DNA of 47,171 bases from a virus. Shown one piece after another: positions 2,056 to 43,266 of the stretch (positions within the stretch are counted from its first letter, which is position 1; every line of letters begins with the position of its first letter). The stretch lies in the IMG/VR virus record IMGVR_UViG_3300044640_001077, positions 1 to 47,171 of that record. One strand, 5' to 3'. The translations under genes and the position numbers were made by a program. The notes below the pieces were generated by a model, which was not told the origin of the DNA, searched no databases, and worked only from the letters and a program-made list of their open reading frames with translations.

Positions 2056-2082
2056 CTAGCCTTCGCCAATCGCCACGGCTAG
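2056..2082 (-). terminator. Hairpin at the helicase 3' end
   Basis: CTAGCC and GGCTAG pair across 15 nt and overlap the helicase stop codon. A T-rich stretch follows on the minus strand only after some distance, so this is a weak terminator or an mRNA 3' end structure. Confidence 0.4.
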
Positions 2083-3482
2083 CTTGTTTGTTTATTCTGT
2101 CTACTCGCCCATATATGTCTCGCCCAGCCAGGTTTATAACCTCGTTGCGATGCGATGCGCTCCAACTCCTCGAGCGATTGCGCTCGCGCTTGCTCGTTAA
2201 TCTTCGATTTCTTCAATCGAAGCCTGTCATCCGCACTCAGCTCGCGAAGCTCTCCGTCAACCTGCTGCGGTGCGTTCTCTTTCACCTCGTATATGTGACC
2301 GCACACCGGGCAGATAGGTGCAGGCTCGTGAATCGCGTAGCACTTCTCACACTGCTTCACCTGAATGGTTTTCTCTTTGTCCTCCTTCTTCTTCTTTTTG
2401 CGCTGCTCTCCCTCGAGCGACCATTCCCGAATCTCGTCAGGCAATCCATGGGTGAGCACGTTTCCAACGTGATCGAGAATCACAGCGCGTTCTTTGCCTG
2501 CACATGGACGGAGCGCACGCCCGACTTGTTGCAGATACAGCCCCAACGATTGAGTGGGACGAAGCAGGATAGCTGCTCCAATGGCAGGGATGTCCGTTCC
2601 CTCGCTGATGAGGTCGCAGCTCGTTACAACGTCAACCGTGCCGTTGCCGAGTCCGTTTAGGATTCGCTTGCGCACATCATCATCCAATGAGCCGTCCGCA
2701 TGGTAGGCGCGATAGCCTGCCCTTCTAAACTCTTCGGCAACGTGCTGTGCATGCCGAACCGATACGCAGAACGCCACCGCAGGAACGCCATCACACAGCT
2801 TCTTGTAGTGCGATACCGCATCCCCTGTGATGGTTGGCTTATCCATCAAGTTCTCGAGCTGTGCGTTGTCGTAGTCACCCATCTTTGTACGCAGCCCTGA
2901 TAGGTCGAGCCGTTCAGCAGGTGCGTAGATAACAGGCTTCACGAGGAAGCCTTTCGCGATGAGGTCGGAAACCTGCGGTCCGATAATGATGTCATCGAAC
3001 ACACCACCCGCTTCAATTCCAAGTCCTGTGCCGTCAGCTCTGCATGGGGTAGCCGTAACGCCAAGCACGCGAGCCATGCTGTAGTGGTCGATTATCCGCT
3101 TCCATGTGGTGGCAAGTGCGTGATGGGCTTCGTCAACAACTATGAGGTCAAACGACTTGAACAGGTGGAGGCGTTTGATGATTGTTTGCACCGATGCCAC
3201 TTGCACGGGTGCCGACAAATCGGGCGTGAATTTCGGGTTCACTAATCCGTGGCGAACGCCTGACTTTCGGAGGGCCTCGGATGTTTGTCTGAGCAGCTCT
3301 ATCCGGTGAACGAGTATGAGTACGCGCTTACCTCGCGCTGCTGTGGTAGCTGCGATATAGGAGAACACGACTGTTTTACCACCACCTGTTGGAAGTACCA
3401 ATAATGGTGATCGGCTGTTTTTCAGAAACGACTCTCGAATGTCCGCTACCGCCTTTCGTTGGTAGTCTCTAAGTTGTAGCAT
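2079..3482 (-). CDS. DEAH-box superfamily 2 helicase
   Basis: 467 aa from the ATG at 3482. A longer reading would overlap the HTH gene upstream and start with a low-complexity tail, so I prefer this start. SF2 motifs are in order: DYQRKAV (Q-like) near the N-terminus, Walker A PTGGGKT at about 31-37, DEAH at 117-120, VTATP at about 142-146, and motif VI QQVGRALRP at about 318-326. A lysine-rich linker is followed by a four-cysteine zinc ribbon (C378, C381, C391, C394). The family unwinds or remodels DNA using ATP. It lies beside the divergent recombination operon, so a role in phage recombination or replication is likely. Confidence 0.9.
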   Translation of the reverse strand: MLQLRDYQRKAVADIRESFLKNSRSPLLVLPTGGGKTVVFSYIAATTAARGKRVLILVHRIELLRQTSEALRKSGVRHGLVNPKFTPDLSAPVQVASVQTIIKRLHLFKSFDLIVVDEAHHALATTWKRIIDHYSMARVLGVTATPCRADGTGLGIEAGGVFDDIIIGPQVSDLIAKGFLVKPVIYAPAERLDLSGLRTKMGDYDNAQLENLMDKPTITGDAVSHYKKLCDGVPAVAFCVSVRHAQHVAEEFRRAGYRAYHADGSLDDDVRKRILNGLGNGTVDVVTSCDLISEGTDIPAIGAAILLRPTQSLGLYLQQVGRALRPCAGKERAVILDHVGNVLTHGLPDEIREWSLEGEQRKKKKKEDKEKTIQVKQCEKCYAIHEPAPICPVCGHIYEVKENAPQQVDGELRELSADDRLRLKKSKINEQARAQSLEELERIASQRGYKPGWARHIWASRQNKQTS

Positions 3483-3510
3483 ACGCTTGTGTGTGTTGAG
3501 TGTGTGTTGG

Positions 3511-3726
3511 TTAGTTGTGCGCCTTCTTCTTATCAATCACCTTGAGTAGCTTGCGCACTACTGTGATCGTTTTCGGTTCTTCGGTTTTCCAACGCTCCAC
3601 GGTGGAGCGGTTTACGCCCGCTTCCCTGCATGCCTCGCTCAGGTTCGTGCCTGCTTCATCGCACGCGGCCTTCAATGAAGCGAACGTGTTATCCGTGATT
3701 TTGAATGATGTCTTAGTAACTGCCAT
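3511..3726 (-). CDS. Small helix-turn-helix DNA-binding protein
   Basis: 71 aa. Residues about 15-60 fit a helix-turn-helix (LSEACREAGVNRSTVERWK, the pattern of Cro/C1-like or resolvase-type readers). It is the last gene before a divergent promoter region and could control the forward exonuclease/annealing operon, its own operon, or both. It is too small to identify as a lysogeny repressor. Confidence 0.7.
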   Translation of the reverse strand: MAVTKTSFKITDNTFASLKAACDEAGTNLSEACREAGVNRSTVERWKTEEPKTITVVRKLLKVIDKKKAHN

Positions 3727-6329: not shown

Positions 6330-6354
6330 GTGTATGTTGCCGTTTTAAGGTTTG

Positions 6355-6427
6355 TTTCCGAGGCAGGACTCGAACCTGCGTGTTCCTGATTTGCCGTCAG
6401 GAGCGTATCCAACTCCGCCACTCGAAA
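6355..6427 (-). tRNA. tRNA-Cys(GCA)-like with G33
   Basis: 73 nt, no encoded CCA. The acceptor is TTTCGAG / CTCGGAA (one T-G pair). The D arm has 3 pairs, the anticodon stem is CCTGA/TCAGG, and the T arm is GCAGG-TTCGAGT-CCTGC with a canonical loop. The anticodon loop is CGGCAAA, giving anticodon GCA (Cys). Position 33, almost always U, is G, and the discriminator base is A rather than the U expected of tRNA-Cys. A functional charge cannot be assured from sequence. Confidence 0.75.
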
Positions 6428-6751: not shown

Positions 6752-6756
6752 TTTCG

Positions 6757-6832
6757 TTCTCGAGAGCGGACTCGAACCGCTGACATGCCCCGTTATACAC
6801 AGAGCCGCTCTAACCAACTGAGCTACTCGAAA
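6757..6832 (-). tRNA. tRNA-Ile(UAU)-like with G33 and a long anticodon stem
   Basis: 76 nt, no encoded CCA. The acceptor is TTTCGAG/CTCGAGA with discriminator A, the D arm is GCTC-AGTTGGTTA-GAGC, and the T arm is AGCGG-TTCGAGT-CCGCT. The anticodon arm pairs CTCTG with CGGGG (plus an extra G-C) around TGTATAA, giving anticodon UAU. As in the neighbouring tRNA, position 33 is G, not U. The alternative fold is a 5-bp stem with a 9-nt loop. Confidence 0.7.
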
Positions 6833-8410: not shown

Positions 8411-8863
8411 CTATTGATAATCTGCACCGTGAGCAGCAACCCAACAAGTACGTGCTGCGGTTAAGTTAGCCAATGCACCAACTCGCAATACATCGTTTGG
8501 CATAAGCGGAATGTAAGCTCTTCCAGTGTTGTCAATCGGCAATCCAAGAATGTTTGTTCCGTTTAAAAAATCAACATTAAAACGTGTTCCGTTTGTGTTA
8601 CCCGAACTCAATGGTACGTTCACCAATCCGATAGGGATAACCGTTGAACCTCGCAAAATCCACACGAAAACATTCACTGTAACGGTATCGTCTGTAACCG
8701 CTGTGAGCGATGTTACACGCCCTCCTTTTGTTCCTGCGGTGTAAACAGACACACCGTTTGTGTTTACACCGATTGCTACAGTGTTTGCGCTTGCCTGAAT
8801 AAGCCCAACGCCACCATTGATGACGTTTGCTACTATTGGTATCTGTGCGTTTGTAAGTGCCAT
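8411..8863 (-). CDS. Tail-associated protein of unknown function
   Basis: 150 aa, beta-rich and Gly/Asn/Thr-rich (VAIGVNTNGVSVYTAGTKGG, LSSGNTNGTRFNVDFLNGTN), with a late-gene look typical of accessory fibre or decoration proteins. It lies in an unbroken string of fibre genes. No family recognised. Confidence 0.55.
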   Translation of the reverse strand: MALTNAQIPIVANVINGGVGLIQASANTVAIGVNTNGVSVYTAGTKGGRVTSLTAVTDDTVTVNVFVWILRGSTVIPIGLVNVPLSSGNTNGTRFNVDFLNGTNILGLPIDNTGRAYIPLMPNDVLRVGALANLTAARTCWVAAHGADYQ

Positions 8864-8872
8864 ATATTTGTC

Positions 8873-9238
8873 TTAGTAATTATACATAAATCTGAATGCT
8901 GCTATTGTTGTAAAATCTTCATCTGCTGCTATTCCAGTCTCACCCTGCGCACCTCTGATGTCCTTCGCATCAGCAATGTTCGCAACAAGCCCCGTAGCCC
9001 CTACATACAGCCCCGTTACAGGCTTCGTACCTGTGCTGCCTGTCCAGTCTACAACCTGATGAACCCTCCTCAAGCCGTCCTCAACCACCGCAAGAATGGG
9101 AGTCCATCCTTGCGCTCCGCGCATACCGGGAACATAAACGAGCGGAACCTCGTTATCGTTCAAAACGACAACAGGCTTGAAGGACTCGCCCTCAATATTT
9201 ATCGGATCCGATTCAGCGTTCAGCTCGATTACAATCAT
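8873..9238 (-). CDS. Fibre-accessory protein with short collagen-like elements
   Basis: 121 aa. ATGA overlap with the upstream gene. It has two isolated GAQG elements (MRGAQGW, IRGAQGETG) like the start of collagen-like fibre segments, and a beta-rich N-terminal region. Probably part of the fibre or baseplate periphery. Not recognised further. Confidence 0.55.
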   Translation of the reverse strand: MIVIELNAESDPINIEGESFKPVVVLNDNEVPLVYVPGMRGAQGWTPILAVVEDGLRRVHQVVDWTGSTGTKPVTGLYVGATGLVANIADAKDIRGAQGETGIAADEDFTTIAAFRFMYNY

Positions 9239-29461: not shown

Positions 29462-30091
29462 TTATTGTTGGTCTATCAGTTTAACAATTGCCTCACTTAT
29501 GTTCTCGTCTATTTTTTCAAGTGCAGATTTTACTTTGAAAAAATTTTTTTCTGACAGTTTTATTTTCAGAATCATGATGTCTTCCAAATTATCAATATCA
29601 ACTTCTGAGTTAGTATATGTACGAATGTGGGAAGCTACATTGACAACGCTTTCAGGTTCCAGTGATCCGCTCGGAAGTATATCCGCTGCATCCTTTAGCA
29701 GCGCGTCCAACTCCTGCTCATCAAATCCGATGACTGAAATATCGAAGTCCAATTCAGCAAGGGTGCTTATCTCGTTGCTTAGCTTTTCAAAGTCCCATCC
29801 CGAATTCAGGGCAAGTTTGTTGTCAGCAAGAACAAGAGCATTTGCTTCTCGTTCAGAAAGGTGGTCAAGGACGATGGTAGGAACTTCTTTAAGTTTTAGC
29901 TGCTTGGCAGCCAATACGCGCCCATGACCGGCAATGATTGTAAAATCCGAACGTATCAGTGCCGGATTCACAAACCCGAACTTTTCAATAGATGTAGCAA
30001 TCTGACCGACTTGGTTCTCTGAATGCGTCCTAGCGTTTTGCGCATACGGAATAAGCGCATCCGTCTTTTTGTATTCTATCTTGAACTTCAT
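29462..30091 (-). CDS. ParB/Sulfiredoxin-fold phage protein
   Basis: 209 aa from the ATG at 30091; a longer frame is basic and unlike the family. KTDALIPYAQNARTHSENQVGQIATSI, FGFVNPALIRSDFTIIAGHGRVLAAKQL (GHGR at 55-58) is the ParB N-terminal nuclease/CTPase-like fold, as seen in phage proteins that lie next to terminases and methyltransferases. Role could be DNA modification, nicking or partition; sequence does not decide. The C-terminal 70 residues are charged and unknown. Confidence 0.8.
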   Translation of the reverse strand: MKFKIEYKKTDALIPYAQNARTHSENQVGQIATSIEKFGFVNPALIRSDFTIIAGHGRVLAAKQLKLKEVPTIVLDHLSEREANALVLADNKLALNSGWDFEKLSNEISTLAELDFDISVIGFDEQELDALLKDAADILPSGSLEPESVVNVASHIRTYTNSEVDIDNLEDIMILKIKLSEKNFFKVKSALEKIDENISEAIVKLIDQQ

Positions 30092-30373
30092 GGCATGCAA
30101 GGTAATAAAAGTTTGCGAACCCGCAAACCTTAGTACCTTATTTTTGCGCCACCGCCTGAATTTCAAATACAAACGATGTGCGAACGTGGCAAACCCGTGA
30201 ATGGAGGTGGGTTACCGCAACCCAAAATCCAACTCTGCAACTGCTGAAAACTCGGGGTGTTCCCACCCGCAGTAGGGCTTATGGGGAAGAACCTAAGGTT
30301 TTTGCAGGGCAGTTTTTTCGCGCATTTGAAGGCTTTTGCAAGCCTTTTGTAAGCCTTGTGTAAATGAATGTAG
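30092..30373. other. Non-coding gap with hairpins
   Basis: 282 bp without a convincing gene. GTTTGCG-AACC-CGCAAAC (30111-30128) is followed on the minus strand by TTTTATT and looks like a terminator just before the ParB gene. Near 30330-30350 AAGGCTT-TTGC-AAGCCTT, with a third GCCTT copy, lies just after the gpZ stop. A GGGTT...AACCC hairpin lies between. Packaging sites could lie here or just upstream of the terminase genes; none can be called. Confidence 0.5.
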
Positions 30374-31024
30374 TTAATCCCTGCGAGATAGTAAGCGCGA
30401 GGCTTCGTGTTGTAGACGTGCAGGGAAGTCTCTCTCTAGCAACAATGTGAGGTTCTTAATCACAGCATTGTTCTGCATCATCTTGGGTACTGATGATGTA
30501 GTGAGCTCGTTAATGGCAAGGTCATTGCCTTTTTTAACCAGACGCTTCTCTCGGAAGTCGAAGCCGTTCCCGCTGTACTTTCCGCGTGCAAATACACCGG
30601 TATGTCCACTGTCCATGGTAGCAATGAAAGCCCCCTTGATAATCTTCCGTTGTCCCATTACGTCAACACTTACTCCTCCACCTTTTAACTTTCTTGAACC
30701 ATGTGCTCCTCTTACATACGTGAAATTCTGGCGTGCTCCAAATGCAATGAGAGGCAGAGGCCTTCCGGTAGCTATGAGCATACCTTCGGTGAACGTGCGA
30801 GACGTCTTGTTGATAGACAGTCCTGCTTTAAGCTCCTTAGCCTTGACGTTGTACTCTTGACGTATTTCACGAGAGGCAGCAGTTTTCGCTTTGGCGAGCG
30901 TGTGGTTTATAGCGCGCGCTATTGCAAGGTTTATTTTGGCGTTTGATCTTGGGTTTGAAACGTCATAAAATTCTCTACGAATTTGGTCGATAGCCGGATT
31001 GATGTCTATGTAGAAGTCTGCCAT
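30374..31024 (-). CDS. Minor tail protein Z-like
   Basis: 216 aa. Elements of the lambda gpZ / prophage minor tail family: NLAIARAINHTLAKAKTAASREIRQEYNVKAKELKAGLSI, ARGKYSGNGFDFREKRL, and the end LTLLLERDFPARLQHEASRLL. gpZ binds tail to head in lambda. Odd location: upstream of ParB and terminase, not between portal and tail genes. Confidence 0.75.
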   Translation of the reverse strand: MADFYIDINPAIDQIRREFYDVSNPRSNAKINLAIARAINHTLAKAKTAASREIRQEYNVKAKELKAGLSINKTSRTFTEGMLIATGRPLPLIAFGARQNFTYVRGAHGSRKLKGGGVSVDVMGQRKIIKGAFIATMDSGHTGVFARGKYSGNGFDFREKRLVKKGNDLAINELTTSSVPKMMQNNAVIKNLTLLLERDFPARLQHEASRLLSRRD

Positions 31025-31028
31025 AATC

Positions 31029-31036
31029 CAAATATA
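31029..31036 (-). promoter_or_regulatory. TATATTTG box 4 nt before the gpZ-like start
   Basis: TATATTTG on the minus strand ends 4 nt before ATG 31024. A degenerate -33 (CTTG) lies 19 nt further upstream. It has the same geometry as the boxes at 14980 and 26563. Confidence 0.4.
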
Positions 31037-31060
31037 CGCTACGAAAACATGAATCCAAGC

Positions 31061-31343
31061 GTAAACAAATGTAAGTCTCTGATAATGCGAGAGAAATAAA
31101 AAATCTGTTTACAAAATCGCTGTTTTGTTTACACCTTGTTTACGCCTAAACCCCTGATTTTGCTGATGTATTATATATATGTAAACAGGTAAACAGAAAT
31201 ATATATATACACATACGTGTGTGTGCGCATGCGCGTGTGCGTATGTGTGCGTGTGTGTGAGTAGGGTTGTATATTTTTTCTGTTTACGTTTACAAATTGG
31301 ATAAGTTTCTGAAAATCAATAGTGATTGTGTAAACGTGTAAAC
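31061..31343. repeat. Ten-copy GTAAAC/GTTTAC iteron cluster, candidate replication origin
   Basis: GTAAAC starts at 31061, 31181, 31189, 31330 and 31338; GTTTAC starts at 31107, 31127, 31138, 31282 and 31288. Most copies extend to TGTTTAC(A/G). They occur in close pairs 6-11 nt apart, in alternating orientation, around an AT-run (TTATATATAT) and a Z-DNA-like tract. About 0.1-0.2 copies would be expected by chance in 283 bp. This is the largest gap in the early region and separates late from early genes. Confidence 0.7.
31199..31259. repeat. 61-bp perfect alternating purine-pyrimidine tract
   Basis: From (AT)n through (GT)n and GCGCATGCGC, purine and pyrimidine alternate without a break. Arms ACACATACG (31209-31217) and CGTATGTGT (31240-31248) are inverted repeats. 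This is a classical Z-DNA and cruciform-prone element, flanked by iteron pairs. Confidence 0.85.
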
Positions 31344-31377
31344 AAAAAAAAACCCGCTGCGGTGTAGGCAACGGGTT
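31344..31377 (-). terminator. Rho-independent terminator after the 31.4-kb gene
   Basis: Minus strand AACCCG and CGGGTT pair across 15 nt, followed by a run of T. A 14-nt direct repeat GCGGTGTAGGCAAC lies inside the loop and again 33 nt further (31394-31407). Confidence 0.75.
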
Positions 31378-31406
31378 CAGTGTCGGTGATGTGCGGTGTA
31401 GGCAAC

Positions 31407-31715
31407 TTACTCGTCAGGCACAAAATGTACGATTACAGGCTTGCCGTTTCCTAAATATTTGGTGATGATTGTGCCTACATGAACCTGATGCATTCCGAAG
31501 TGGTCGGCAACTTCTCGCACCGTTACATTTGGTGTGCATACAAAATACTCGCATATATCACCCCATAGCGACATGCGCTTCCTGCGGTTATATTCTGCGT
31601 TTCGTTGGGTGTGCGGTTGCCTGCACTCGGTGCATACCCTCGACTCGTTTAGGAACGCGTGCTTGGGCTTGCTTTGGCTGCAAACGCTGCACTTTCGGGT
31701 TGGCTTAGTCGGCAT
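31407..31715 (-). CDS. Zinc-ribbon plus HTH-like small protein
   Basis: 102 aa from MPTKP (an upstream ATG at 31724 adds 3 residues). Cys pairs CSVC and CTEC in the first 35 residues form a zinc ribbon. The C-terminal half has VTVREVADHFGMHQVHVGTIITKYLG, a helix-turn-helix. Probable DNA-binding regulator. It is adjacent to the iteron region and could be its reader, but nothing proves this. Confidence 0.65.
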   Translation of the reverse strand: MPTKPTRKCSVCSQSKPKHAFLNESRVCTECRQPHTQRNAEYNRRKRMSLWGDICEYFVCTPNVTVREVADHFGMHQVHVGTIITKYLGNGKPVIVHFVPDE

Positions 31716-31742
31716 AGCTCGCATCGGTTGTAATTGTGTAAA

Positions 31743-37279: not shown

Positions 37280-37693
37280 TTAAAACGGTACTTCGTCTGT
37301 TGCTGAATCGTTTGTTTGAGCAGGGGCCGAAGCTTTAGCTGCTGGTGCGATAGGTTCAGTGTGCTGCGGAGCTTGCTGTGCTGAACCCGCAAGCGTAATG
37401 CTAGTTACGTTCACTTCTAGGGATGCGCGAGGTTGTGAATCACGGTCTGTGTATGAGCGTGCCGATACGCGCCCGCTGATGCACACCTTGGTTCCTTTGG
37501 TTAGGTACTGAGCTATGGCAGTTGATCCACCGGCTTGAACCCACTTGGTGCAGGAGAACCAATCGGTGTGATCCTGCTGTCCGCGTTTTTCGCTTACCGC
37601 GACTGAAAATGAAATGGGAAGCGAGCCGTTAGCTGTAGGCTTACCGATGACAGCGTTCTGTCCGAGTGTTCCGAAGATTGTTAGGTTGTTCAT
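37280..37693 (-). CDS. ssb: Single-stranded DNA-binding protein
   Basis: 137 aa. OB fold: NNLTIFGTLGQNAVIGK, SFSVAVSEKRGQQDHTDWFSCTKW, YLTKGTKVCISGRVSARSY. A Pro/Ala linker ends in the acidic tip DEVPF, typical of bacterial and phage SSB. It coats ssDNA and calls other replication proteins. Confidence 0.93.
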   Translation of the reverse strand: MNNLTIFGTLGQNAVIGKPTANGSLPISFSVAVSEKRGQQDHTDWFSCTKWVQAGGSTAIAQYLTKGTKVCISGRVSARSYTDRDSQPRASLEVNVTSITLAGSAQQAPQHTEPIAPAAKASAPAQTNDSATDEVPF

Positions 37694-40060: not shown

Positions 40061-42841
40061 TTATTGTTCAGTTCCTATTATCTCGTCCAATGGTATTGAT
40101 ACCGCTCGCGTAATAGCTCCACTTGCGAAACGTGCCGAAGTCTTATCGGCTGCTCCCGGTATGCGAAGCAATATCCTAGCGTGGTTCTTAGCCCATGCCG
40201 ATTCTCGCAACATCTTCCGTAGCTGTTCCGAGCTGTTGGACACAACCAGGTTGCCGTTTGTGGTGTACTGCTCAACCTCAACCTTCAACCCGAACCGCTT
40301 CAAGTGCGAGTTCGCATTCTCAGAGCTGAGCCCGTACTCGCCCTTTCTGTTGGATGCCACGGCCACAAGCTCGCCAATGGTGCGCGTGATTTTAGCGTGT
40401 TCCCCTTCAACCTGTATTATTTGGTCGAGGATGAACGCCACGAGCGCGTGTTCGTCCTTGCTGCCCTCGAGCGACTTCTCCTCGCTCCAATCTTTGTCGG
40501 CTACCCATCGCTTCGCAGCCTCGAACTCAATGAGGCCATCGCTATGTATGCTGTAAGCTCCTGCGAGTATTGCGCCCAGCTGATCGCCTTGGCGTTGCTC
40601 ACCGAGTACGGCTGCTGCTGCGTTTGCGAAGGTTTTTGCGTTCTTTAATATAGTTGGTAGCAGTGCCACGGTTCGAGCTTGCAAACGCTGTACGAACGCA
40701 TCCGTGAATACATCATTGTACAACCGTTGCAACGTCTCCCATCGCTGCGCACGCTCAGGTGATTCCCGAGGCAGTGCCTTCATTGATAGGATGGTGATAC
40801 GCGAACGGTCCGACTGTTGCGCAGCTTGCACACCGATAGATGCGAAGGCGAAGCAGCTCCGTATCGAGTACGATCTTGCGGCTCCTGTTGCCGAACCTTT
40901 TAGGAGCAACCCTCCATCATCCGTTGAAGCCGAGCGCATCAACGTGAGGATGTTTTGAATGCGTTCCTCACTGCGCTTGCCGTCTGAGTCCATCTCATCG
41001 AACACAACAGGAAGCGCATCATGCACGAGCGTTTGGCGTAGTCCTGCCTCGGACGTTTCACCCTGAACCGCGAGCGCAGTTTCACCCAATGCCCTGCGAA
41101 CTATCTTCTCGAACACCCATGACTTCCCCGTTCCCGCTGAACCTGTAAGCCAAATGTGAGGCCTCCATTTTAGCGCACCACAGAACGGAGCAACAACACA
41201 CCAACCCGCAAGCAGGTGCGTGTTTACATCACGCTCCCAATTTAGATAACCAAGCACCTCAATAAGTCTGTGCGCTTCCTTAGTTGACAGCGGGCTGTCT
41301 GTATCAATCCCAAGATCATCGGATGTTTCGTACACGAACCTGGATTCGATTGAGCCAAGAGGCAACAGCGTTCCGTCAACGATGAGTTCGCTGCCTGTGT
41401 GGATAATTACGCGCTCCTTATCCGTCCACGCTCCACGTCCGCGAATAAATCGTTCGTTGAACGGGCCTGCTTTGATGGACGTGCGGATAAGGAACTCCTG
41501 CGCAGCGTCCATGATGATTCCCTTCTTGCCACCAAAGTGCATTTCCCAAAACGAGAGCGGAGCGAGTGAAATCAGCGCGGACTTGCTGAGCGCGGATGGC
41601 GAGTAGGATAGCGTTGACTTCGCCTCGAGCTGAAAAAAGTGGTGATGCATCACCCCTTCGGACTTGCTCCATCCGAGGAAGCGAAAGTGCTCCGAGTACC
41701 CTATCGGATCGTACCCTCCGTGCGGAGTCTTGAAGCTTTCGTCATGTGATTCATAGGTTGGTGGTTCAAACACATCTGCAGGTGGTTCGGGATTGGTTGG
41801 AGGTTCTTGTTTCAGCTCTTTGAACAGCCATCGCCCATCCACTGGACCGAACTCATAAACGCTTGCACGGTCTATCTGAGCCATGCGCCACAGGTTGCCG
41901 TGCGTAGGTGGAATGTCATCCACCAATCGGTTCAGCACGAATGAGCGCAGCTCGCCTTCCTTCCAATCACTATCTGCGCAGTCCCAACCTTTCGGGAGCG
42001 TGGTATCGAGTGGAATGATTTTGCAGAGCGGTAGGTTCGCTCCTATTTTGTGGCGAACGTGGAGCATGGCACTGATGCCTTGCACATCGTTATCCGGCCA
42101 CATAATCACCTTGCGCCCATGGATAGGAAGCCAATGTATATGCTCAATAGCCATTGATCCACCCGGCCATGTGGTGACAACTGTCTTAGTCGGGTCAATC
42201 TGTGCCTGTGCAGCATCGGCTGTTTTTTCGCCTTCAACGAGAAGCACCGATGCGTTCGGGTTGGCTGCGAGTAGGTGGAGGTTGTAGAGCGGACGAGGCG
42301 TGTCGAAACCTTGCCACCTCCATTCGGAGCGGTTTCCATCCGTGCACCATGTGTACGGGAGAACCTCCTTGGACCCGTCCTCAAGGTCAAACCTGCACAC
42401 GTAGCCGTAAGGCCTGCCGTCATCGAGTCGGTACGTCCACACCATCGAGGCTGTGCCGTGCTTGTAGTGCTCTATCGGTTTGGTGATGGCTTCGGGCGGT
42501 ACGCGCTGCTGCCAAACCTTCTTCGGTTCGGCTTGGGCTACGGTTCGTTTACGTCCGTTTACAGCTTCGCTTACGGCTTGCTTGTCGATTTCCTCGCACG
42601 CTTCGTGAAAATTCTTTCCTGAGAACTCTGAAACGAACGCAATAGCATCACCACTCCATCCACAGGCGAAACACTTCGCAAGATTCTTGGACGGTGTTAC
42701 GGTGAGGGATGCTTCACGGTCATCATGAAACGGACACGTTCCTTTCAGGTGCGCACCAGATGGTTTCAGTTGTATATAACGCCCAATAACATCTGCTATC
42801 GGGTTCTCTTGTAAGATCTTTTCGGTGTCTATTCGCTGCAT
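40061..42841 (-). CDS. Primase-helicase with zinc finger, TOPRIM and helicase domains
   Basis: 926 aa. CHC2 zinc finger with C36, H39, C57, C60 (TCPFHDD, KCFACGW). TOPRIM-like region with VLLVEGEKTADAA (203-206 EGEK) and MWPDNDVQG. C-terminal DUF927-type helicase: Walker A TGSAGTGKS (567-574), Walker B VVFDEMDSD (612-618). It primes and unwinds DNA at the phage fork and is the core replication protein. A full multidomain protein for this group; no truncation. Confidence 0.93.
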   Translation of the reverse strand: MQRIDTEKILQENPIADVIGRYIQLKPSGAHLKGTCPFHDDREASLTVTPSKNLAKCFACGWSGDAIAFVSEFSGKNFHEACEEIDKQAVSEAVNGRKRTVAQAEPKKVWQQRVPPEAITKPIEHYKHGTASMVWTYRLDDGRPYGYVCRFDLEDGSKEVLPYTWCTDGNRSEWRWQGFDTPRPLYNLHLLAANPNASVLLVEGEKTADAAQAQIDPTKTVVTTWPGGSMAIEHIHWLPIHGRKVIMWPDNDVQGISAMLHVRHKIGANLPLCKIIPLDTTLPKGWDCADSDWKEGELRSFVLNRLVDDIPPTHGNLWRMAQIDRASVYEFGPVDGRWLFKELKQEPPTNPEPPADVFEPPTYESHDESFKTPHGGYDPIGYSEHFRFLGWSKSEGVMHHHFFQLEAKSTLSYSPSALSKSALISLAPLSFWEMHFGGKKGIIMDAAQEFLIRTSIKAGPFNERFIRGRGAWTDKERVIIHTGSELIVDGTLLPLGSIESRFVYETSDDLGIDTDSPLSTKEAHRLIEVLGYLNWERDVNTHLLAGWCVVAPFCGALKWRPHIWLTGSAGTGKSWVFEKIVRRALGETALAVQGETSEAGLRQTLVHDALPVVFDEMDSDGKRSEERIQNILTLMRSASTDDGGLLLKGSATGAARSYSIRSCFAFASIGVQAAQQSDRSRITILSMKALPRESPERAQRWETLQRLYNDVFTDAFVQRLQARTVALLPTILKNAKTFANAAAAVLGEQRQGDQLGAILAGAYSIHSDGLIEFEAAKRWVADKDWSEEKSLEGSKDEHALVAFILDQIIQVEGEHAKITRTIGELVAVASNRKGEYGLSSENANSHLKRFGLKVEVEQYTTNGNLVVSNSSEQLRKMLRESAWAKNHARILLRIPGAADKTSARFASGAITRAVSIPLDEIIGTEQ

Positions 42842-42867: not shown

Positions 42868-43266
42868 CTATTTGCCGTGAAAGTCAATGATGTCCTTCGC
42901 GCCTTCGGGTGAGTGAACGATTCCAGCAATGCCTCCCGACTTCGCGACCACCTCTAGGAAGTTGCGCTGCTTGGGCGATACCCGAGCGGACGAATCGCGC
43001 TTCACCTCGAGCGCAGTGAACACGGCAACCTTCTTGCCAATCATGTGCGGTTGAATCGTTATCTCAGTCCAACCGATAAGGTCGGAGCTGCCCTCACACA
43101 GCCCGGCATGGAGAGGACGCGCGTCCTTCACCATCACGTTTCCTGAACCGTTGATGCGTTTGGATTGTCCAACCCATCCGTAACCTGTGTTGTTGCGAAA
43201 TATTTTTACGTTCGGCAGTTTGCCGAGTGCAAGCTCAATGAGCCGCATAACATTTGATTCGTTCAT
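42868..43266 (-). CDS. VRR-NUC domain nuclease
   Basis: 132 aa. IFRNNTGYGW, GSSDLIGW (GSSD near 59-62), FTALEVKRD (E87-V-K89) and PKQRNFLEVVAKSGGIAGIV give the PD-(D/E)XK VRR-NUC fold found in phage Holliday-junction/flap nucleases. Last gene of the replication set, after the primase start. ATACGCA motif copy 4 lies just upstream. Confidence 0.85.
   Translation of the reverse strand: MNESNVMRLIELALGKLPNVKIFRNNTGYGWVGQSKRINGSGNVMVKDARPLHAGLCEGSSDLIGWTEITIQPHMIGKKVAVFTALEVKRDSSARVSPKQRNFLEVVAKSGGIAGIVHSPEGAKDIIDFHGK

Follow-up and report, generated by a model that had tools for sequence, protein, structure and literature searches.

The intergenic array and its core

The window analyzed here is the whole of an IMG/VR virus genome (record IMGVR_UViG_3300044640_001077, 47,171 bases), a roughly 47-kb myovirus carrying terminase, portal, capsid, sheath and tape-measure genes. 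Nearly all of its genes are directed leftward, with replication and early genes at about 31–45 kb and structural genes at about 8–31 kb, and an iteron array (31061–31343) lies at the border of the two blocks, within a 382-bp gap between the neck1/minor tail Z gene (30374–31024, minus strand), which opens the late block immediately downstream of the array, and a small Zn/HTH gene (31407–31724). A first-pass annotation had already placed the early/late border here, and the gene content agrees: on the left are the genes for terminase, portal, capsid and sheath, and on the right those for RadC-like, methylase, single-strand DNA-binding and primase-helicase proteins. On the minus strand, an intrinsic-terminator-like hairpin with a T tail (31350–31378) closes the upstream gene 31407–31724 and adjoins the array.

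Five GTAAAC (31061, 31181, 31189, 31330, and 31338) and five GTTTAC (31107, 31127, 31138, 31282, and 31288) had been reported within 283 bp, and all ten were located (consensus TGTTTAC/GTAAACA). They alternate in orientation as five blocks (one site forward, three reverse, two forward, two reverse, two forward) and fall into a left set of six sites (31061–31194) and a right set of four (31282–31343). Between the sets lies an 87-bp core (31195–31281), the proposed unwinding region, composed of an AT run, an alternating purine-pyrimidine tract and a TATATTTTTT run. The tract is exactly 61 bp long (31199–31259), as first described, and mixes CG, CA/TG and TA steps. AT-runs were found at about 31170–31180 and 31195–31209. 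Judging from its alternation, the tract is Z-DNA-prone and could adopt that form.

Chance is ruled out as the origin of the sites or the tract. The maximum was four sites per 283 bp across 100 first-order Markov simulations of the window record, and 5,000 simulations from the dinucleotides of the intergenic region itself gave a mean of 0.57 sites and a maximum of five; the longest alternating tract in 100 simulated records was 22, vs. 61 bp in the window. The chance expectation of 0.14 given initially was too low for AT-rich DNA, and the conclusion drawn from it holds regardless. The rest of the 47-kb record contains no second GTAAAC/GTTTAC array, with at most two sites per 283-bp stretch, and a search of the array region against Rfam returned no match. 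DnaA boxes (TTATNCACA, up to one mismatch) numbered 38 in the record vs. 46 expected, with no exact one near the array, and this lack of clustered boxes distinguishes the window from DnaA-dependent origins.

The sequence GCRTATATTYGGAYTATGG (31020–31040), which spans the neck1 start codon and the bases just before it, is kept in the relative G1 (see below). We take TATATTTG to be like the Bacteroidota −7 box, though it lies very near the start codon.

Conservation in close relatives

Besides the window, the exact array pattern was recovered from IMG/VR only in IMGVR_UViG_3300032294_001472 (48.9 kb, hereafter G1); a DNA-level search of a phage collection with the array region gave no match, and no relatives were obtained through the Zn/HTH protein 31407. 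Since G1 is collinear with the window but circularly permuted, both are probably complete circular assemblies. At 80% identity in the terminase and 63% in neck1, G1 has an array in the corresponding gap; eight sites are in register with those of the window, and the flanks are kept on both sides. The layout of the core is kept as well, and the 66-bp alternating tract of G1 preserves the alternation and not the exact sequence.

Two phages whose helicases are 52–53% identical to that of the window (L065 and L066) have TGTAAAC arrays in the same place, before the neck1 gene, which also neighbors the array in L078. Because the core of L066 includes a 41-bp alternating tract and that of L065 is merely AT-rich, what stays constant is the iterons together with a core that is unstable, and the long tract prone to Z-DNA is an elaboration. 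The first-pass annotation had named a spread of the motif elsewhere in relatives as evidence against an origin; no regulon-like spread was seen, the arrays of G1, L065, and L066 occupying the same place and the others tracking the helicase family.

Arrays across the helicase family

Homologues of the window primase-helicase (40061–42841, minus strand, 926 aa) were present in 23 annotated phage records, 12 of which were read, representing 11 lineages (PY223 nearly duplicates PBb002). When clustered short words were scanned for without bias, all 12 of these helicase-encoding genomes showed a noncoding cluster of a short related motif, among them GTTACG in Bordetella PY223, TGTAAGC/TGTTAGC in KLER1-1, TGTTACC in 11 copies in Bdellovibrio phi1422, TGTTACA in Acjo_20, GGTTACC in Dolphis, CTGGAAC in fHe-Yen8-01 and CGTTAG in ZRG1, where the array is again directly before a minor-tail gene. 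The cluster of Mwe-JY13 is weak (5 copies).

As controls, we used four phage records of 40–45 kb with terminases 48–58% identical to that of the window and without a detectable homologue of the primase-helicase. None of the four has a comparable noncoding array (best noncoding scores −4.3, −5.7, or none, vs. −10.6 to −11.6 for the window), and the significant clusters in three of them (G004, G010, and G014) correspond to predicted reading frames with repeated codons. Structural-module relatives (L007–L036) were dropped as a source of arrays: those searched are without the helicase, and the four read fully have no comparable noncoding array.

The control phages also bear on whether the array might be a packaging initiation site (cos/pac) for the terminase small subunit. 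The terminase is lambda gpA-like, the array lies 1.7 kb upstream of the small-subunit gene, and the KLER1-1 array is found shortly before the terminase genes. We nevertheless regard a packaging site as very improbable, since phages with such similar terminases and no such helicase have no array, since the arrays of phi1422, S-H1, Acjo_20, Mwe-JY13, and Dolphis are kilobases from the terminase or not beside it, and since the gene table of one plasmid that carries both helicase and array lists no terminase.

The survey was then extended to 127 contigs, drawn from IMG/VR and from collections of bacterial genomes, which provided 119 usable helicase loci. A significant top cluster (log10 p ≤ −6) occurred at 72 of these, vs. 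1 of 118 simulated loci. Cluster starts fell within −150 to +700 bp of the helicase stop at 39 of the 72 loci (6.3% expected), and 18 of 27 clusters remained near the stop after culling to <50% helicase identity (p 2e-15). The 47 loci without a significant cluster are perhaps partial contigs or degenerate arrays.

The motifs differ among lineages (TGTTTAC, TGTTACC, TGTCAAC, TGTCACG) and share a common TGT/ACA edge (38 of 73 top words, 8.3 expected; the L154 cluster, being doubtful, was not counted among the motifs). Helicases that are alike have only slightly more similar motifs (Mantel rho 0.12, p 0.02), a signal too weak for mapping the specificity domain by motif-helicase covariation, which was dropped. 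At one locus from a Thiotrichales MAG, a second and different cluster, GATCCCGA in 12 copies, directly follows the TGTAACC array (L163:8496–8752).

Long alternating tracts are found in other arrays as well. Two phages only distantly related to the window, with helicases only 40% identical to its own, have tracts of 75–80 bp at the center of GTGACA arrays (L138, from 5422 onward, and L139, 11539–11830), and tracts of 27–41 bp occur in L066, L078, L154, and L082. Overall, the longest alternating tract ranks within the top 5% of its own contig for 38% of arrays, and the AT-richest 50 bp for 62%. On sequence grounds, the tract may adopt the Z form, unwind readily through weak stacking or simply provide a flexible spacer, and this recurring Z-prone core offers a test bed for asking whether Z-DNA aids unwinding or merely marks it.

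Genes that accompany the arrays

Besides the primase-helicase, the window gene most often represented at the 72 array loci was the ResIII/DEAD helicase (2079–3536, minus strand; 50 loci). A small endonuclease-like gene directly upstream of the primase-helicase (42868–43266, minus strand) was represented at 47 loci, and the ParB-like gene (13 loci), the HTH gene at 3511 (10 loci) and the Zn/HTH gene at 31407 (1 locus) were far less frequent. No other window gene follows the helicase-array pattern at these loci. The counts come from partial contigs and from loci chosen by their helicase, so that the location of the clusters rather than co-occurrence is taken as the evidence. As the sole candidate binder common to array-bearing genomes, the primase-helicase is thus the likely initiator. 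Of the three binders proposed initially, it is the one retained; the protein at 31407, with a homologue in G1 only, and the HTH protein at 3511 are not.

These counts weigh on two further functions for the array. It could be an operator at which a phage regulator (e.g., the Zn/HTH protein 31407–31724) times late transcription of the neck1–terminase block, as its position suggests, directly upstream of the first late gene, beside the Zn/HTH gene and with the intrinsic terminator on its other side. The G1 homologue of this regulator is however only 30% identical, though the array is nearly invariant, and the HTH 3511 protein accompanies only the small minority of arrays given above. Moreover, the window has no motif clusters elsewhere, many relatives' arrays follow the helicase gene instead of preceding late genes, and arrays are also carried by plasmids without late genes. 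An operator is therefore unlikely as the main function, and the array may have a secondary role in transcription.

The other function is a partition site (centromere) for the ParB-like protein, whose ParB_N-domain gene (29462–30172) is 0.9 kb from the array and which has homologues at the 13 loci just mentioned. We give this very little credence: most array loci show no homologue of the window ParB, no ParA was recognized among the proteins scanned, similar phage ParB_N proteins are largely of the nuclease/methyltransferase-linked type, and the arrays follow the helicase gene.

Small plasmids with helicase and array

Homologues of the primase-helicase are also encoded on small plasmids. In Arsenophonus nasoniae plasmids of 7.9–9.6 kb and an 11.6-kb sister, the helicase is the only recognized replication gene (gene tables are incomplete, and reading frames of at least 90 aa were listed), its neighbors being HTH genes and, on most of the plasmids, genes for a protelomerase, a terminase small subunit or both. 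Each of these plasmids has 8–13 iterons within 450 bp downstream of the helicase. Two pairs are co-resident and differ in their iteron word, with TGTTAGC in 11 copies on paPv13 and TGTTACC in 13 on paPv15 in strain aPv, and TACAACC in 13 copies on paNv_CAN17 and TGTAATG in 8 on paNv_CAN18 in strain aNv_CAN; none of the tested words occurred in another plasmid's array. This suggests that helicase and array would be enough for plasmid maintenance, and that the iteron word would separate co-resident replicons.

These small, mostly linear plasmids (L199 paPv15, L200 paPv13, L201 paNv_CH14, L202 paNv_CAN17, and L203 paNv_CAN18), on which no capsid genes were recognized, look like phage satellites maintained as telomere plasmids, with private iterons in the co-resident pairs. 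A 19-kb plasmid of Atlantibacter subterranea, pLH84-a-B, is similarly satellite-like: the helicase is again the only recognized replication gene, and the array is directly downstream. The plasmid (L198:5752–9602) encodes an integrase and the CHC2 primase-helicase, followed by GGTAATA/GGTAAC repeats (about 8590–8900) around an AT/TATATATA core and then a terminase small-subunit gene.

Domains and predicted fold of the primase-helicase

The window protein consists of a CHC2 zinc ribbon (residues 6–89), a weak Toprim match (199–267), an SF3-type AAA+ domain (about 560–790) and a C-terminal domain. In Pfam it matched only DUF5906, below threshold, and a profile search of PDB sequences returned no Rep or Cch at E ≤ 1. 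An AlphaFold model of the helicase half (pLDDT 92.3) found its best fold match in SCCmec Cch (5dgk, Z 15.7, 392 aligned residues over the whole length, 13% sequence identity), with other matches to the SaPI5 primase-helicase (7ola, Z 13.2), PriRep1-dsDNA (7pds, by Foldseek) and poxvirus D5/E5; MCM proteins reached Z 13–15 over the AAA+ core only. The helicase fold is thus predicted to be SaPI/SCCmec-like. The C-terminal domain (40061–40459, minus strand; model mfeab362c044d, pLDDT 94) gave, when searched alone, a weak best match to TcpK (5vfx, Z 4.6) and nothing above; with SaPI Rep and SCCmec Cch2 as models, we propose that it is the part that binds the iterons. The replication module further includes a single-strand DNA-binding protein (37280–37693, minus strand, phrog_44).

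A proposed replication origin

Because phages that share the helicase, and tiny plasmids as well, carry a similar array, often beside the helicase gene, the window array is very probably the phage replication origin. This agrees with the proposal of the first-pass annotation, for which the relatives and the helicase association now make a strong inferential case, with GC skew in a supporting role only. Counting against it, some 9 kb separate the window array from the helicase gene, which it adjoins in many relatives; the weak link between motif and helicase similarity and the 47 loci without a significant cluster also count against it. Cumulative GC skew, suggested at the outset as a check, has its detrended minimum 2.1 kb away from the window array and 1.2 kb away from that of G1, although a minimum falls near the array in only about half of the tested phages and skew follows gene strand too. 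Coding-strand GC3 skew changes from +0.17 (23–31 kb) to −0.08 (31–37 kb), and together with the two minima this change across the array is consistent with bidirectional replication.

Replication from this origin might proceed as follows. Hexamers of the primase-helicase would use the C-terminal domain to bind the two iteron sets flanking the core, and the core, with its AT run and 61-bp alternating tract, would open. The SF3 helicase would then load itself onto the separated strands, primers would be made by the zinc-ribbon/Toprim primase fused to it, and a host DNA polymerase would presumably extend them, as no DNA polymerase gene was recognized in the window. The outcome would probably be bidirectional theta replication.

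Comparison with known replicons

In PICIs, the origin lies 3′ of rep and without exception has an iteron set on either side of an AT-rich stretch, the putative melting site; such two-sided origins have been called a hallmark of phage satellites that no other replicon is known to share (PMC6092414). Iterons are bound by the C-terminal domain (e.g., of Cch2) in SaPIs and SCCmec (PMC7581432). The window resembles the SaPI/PICI systems in its six and four iterons flanking an easily melted core (31195–31281), in its SF3/D5-type helicase initiator with primase fused or adjacent (PMC6092414; PMC7581432), in the origin directly 3′ of the gene in many relatives of its helicase, and in the match of its helicase model to the 7ola and 7pds folds. 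In contrast to PICIs, which are satellites without virion genes of their own, it is a full-size tailed phage that has them, and it departs from SaPI/PICI origins in the 9 kb between origin and initiator gene and in its long alternating Z-prone core.

The SCCmec proteins Cch/Cch2 include the best structural match of the modeled helicase over its full length, and their origin, downstream of the gene, has repeats bound by the C-terminal domain (PMC7581432). SCCmec differs, however, in having only three 5-nt AAGTG iterons, a separate primase-polymerase and a chromosomal cassette, and the profile search of PDB sequences gave no match to SaPI or SCCmec proteins at the sequence level. We do not file the window as a SaPI/PICI/SCCmec member, as its array is not 3′ of the initiator gene and that search recovered no Rep or Cch, and instead describe a probable origin that works in the manner of SaPI/PICI/SCCmec but belongs to a full-size phage and a sequence-distinct helicase family.

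The alpha protein of the satellite phage P4 unites primase, helicase and origin recognition (Ziegelin, 1993). Primase and SF3 helicase are likewise fused in one polypeptide in the window. P4 replication requires a second repeat region, crr, whereas the window has no second, crr-like array, and its iteron is TGTTTAC where that of P4 is presumably GGTGAACA. The crenarchaeal plasmid pRN1 offers another parallel: as summarized in PMC4234260, its minimal replicon comprises a replication protein with several functions and, downstream of the gene for it, DNA that is essential. This is an archaeal plasmid with a different primase, and that summary gives no comparable iteron array.

It is tempting to speculate about a large replicon family that spans full-size tailed phages, satellite-like plasmids and elements in many bacterial phyla, in which each primase-SF3 helicase has an iteron array of its own, built around a core that unwinds easily. 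The fast-changing iteron word (TGTTTAC, TGTTACC, TGTCACG, TGTCAAC, and others) would serve as a compatibility code between co-resident replicons, and several lineages would unwind at a 40–80-bp Z-DNA-prone tract; to us, the case for this whole picture is about evenly balanced. The two-sided iteron origin, now seen in many ordinary phages and small plasmids, points to a common replicon shared or exchanged by phages and satellites, and the iteron word can now be tested as what determines whether replicons coexist and satellites parasitize. In practice, origins in metagenomic phages may be sought downstream of the primase-SF3 helicase gene, and the 8-kb plasmids provide natural minimal replicons for assays.

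Other features of the window

The ParB_N-domain gene is located between the terminase small-subunit and neck1 genes, and its product is like nuclease/methyltransferase-linked phage ParB families. A tail protein with collagen-like repeats is encoded at 981–2018, and the matching region of G1 (about 44.8–45.1 kb) is the strongest repeat cluster of that genome. Finally, the window has two tRNA genes (6354–6427 and 6756–6832), called as Cys (gca) and an unusual Ile (tat).
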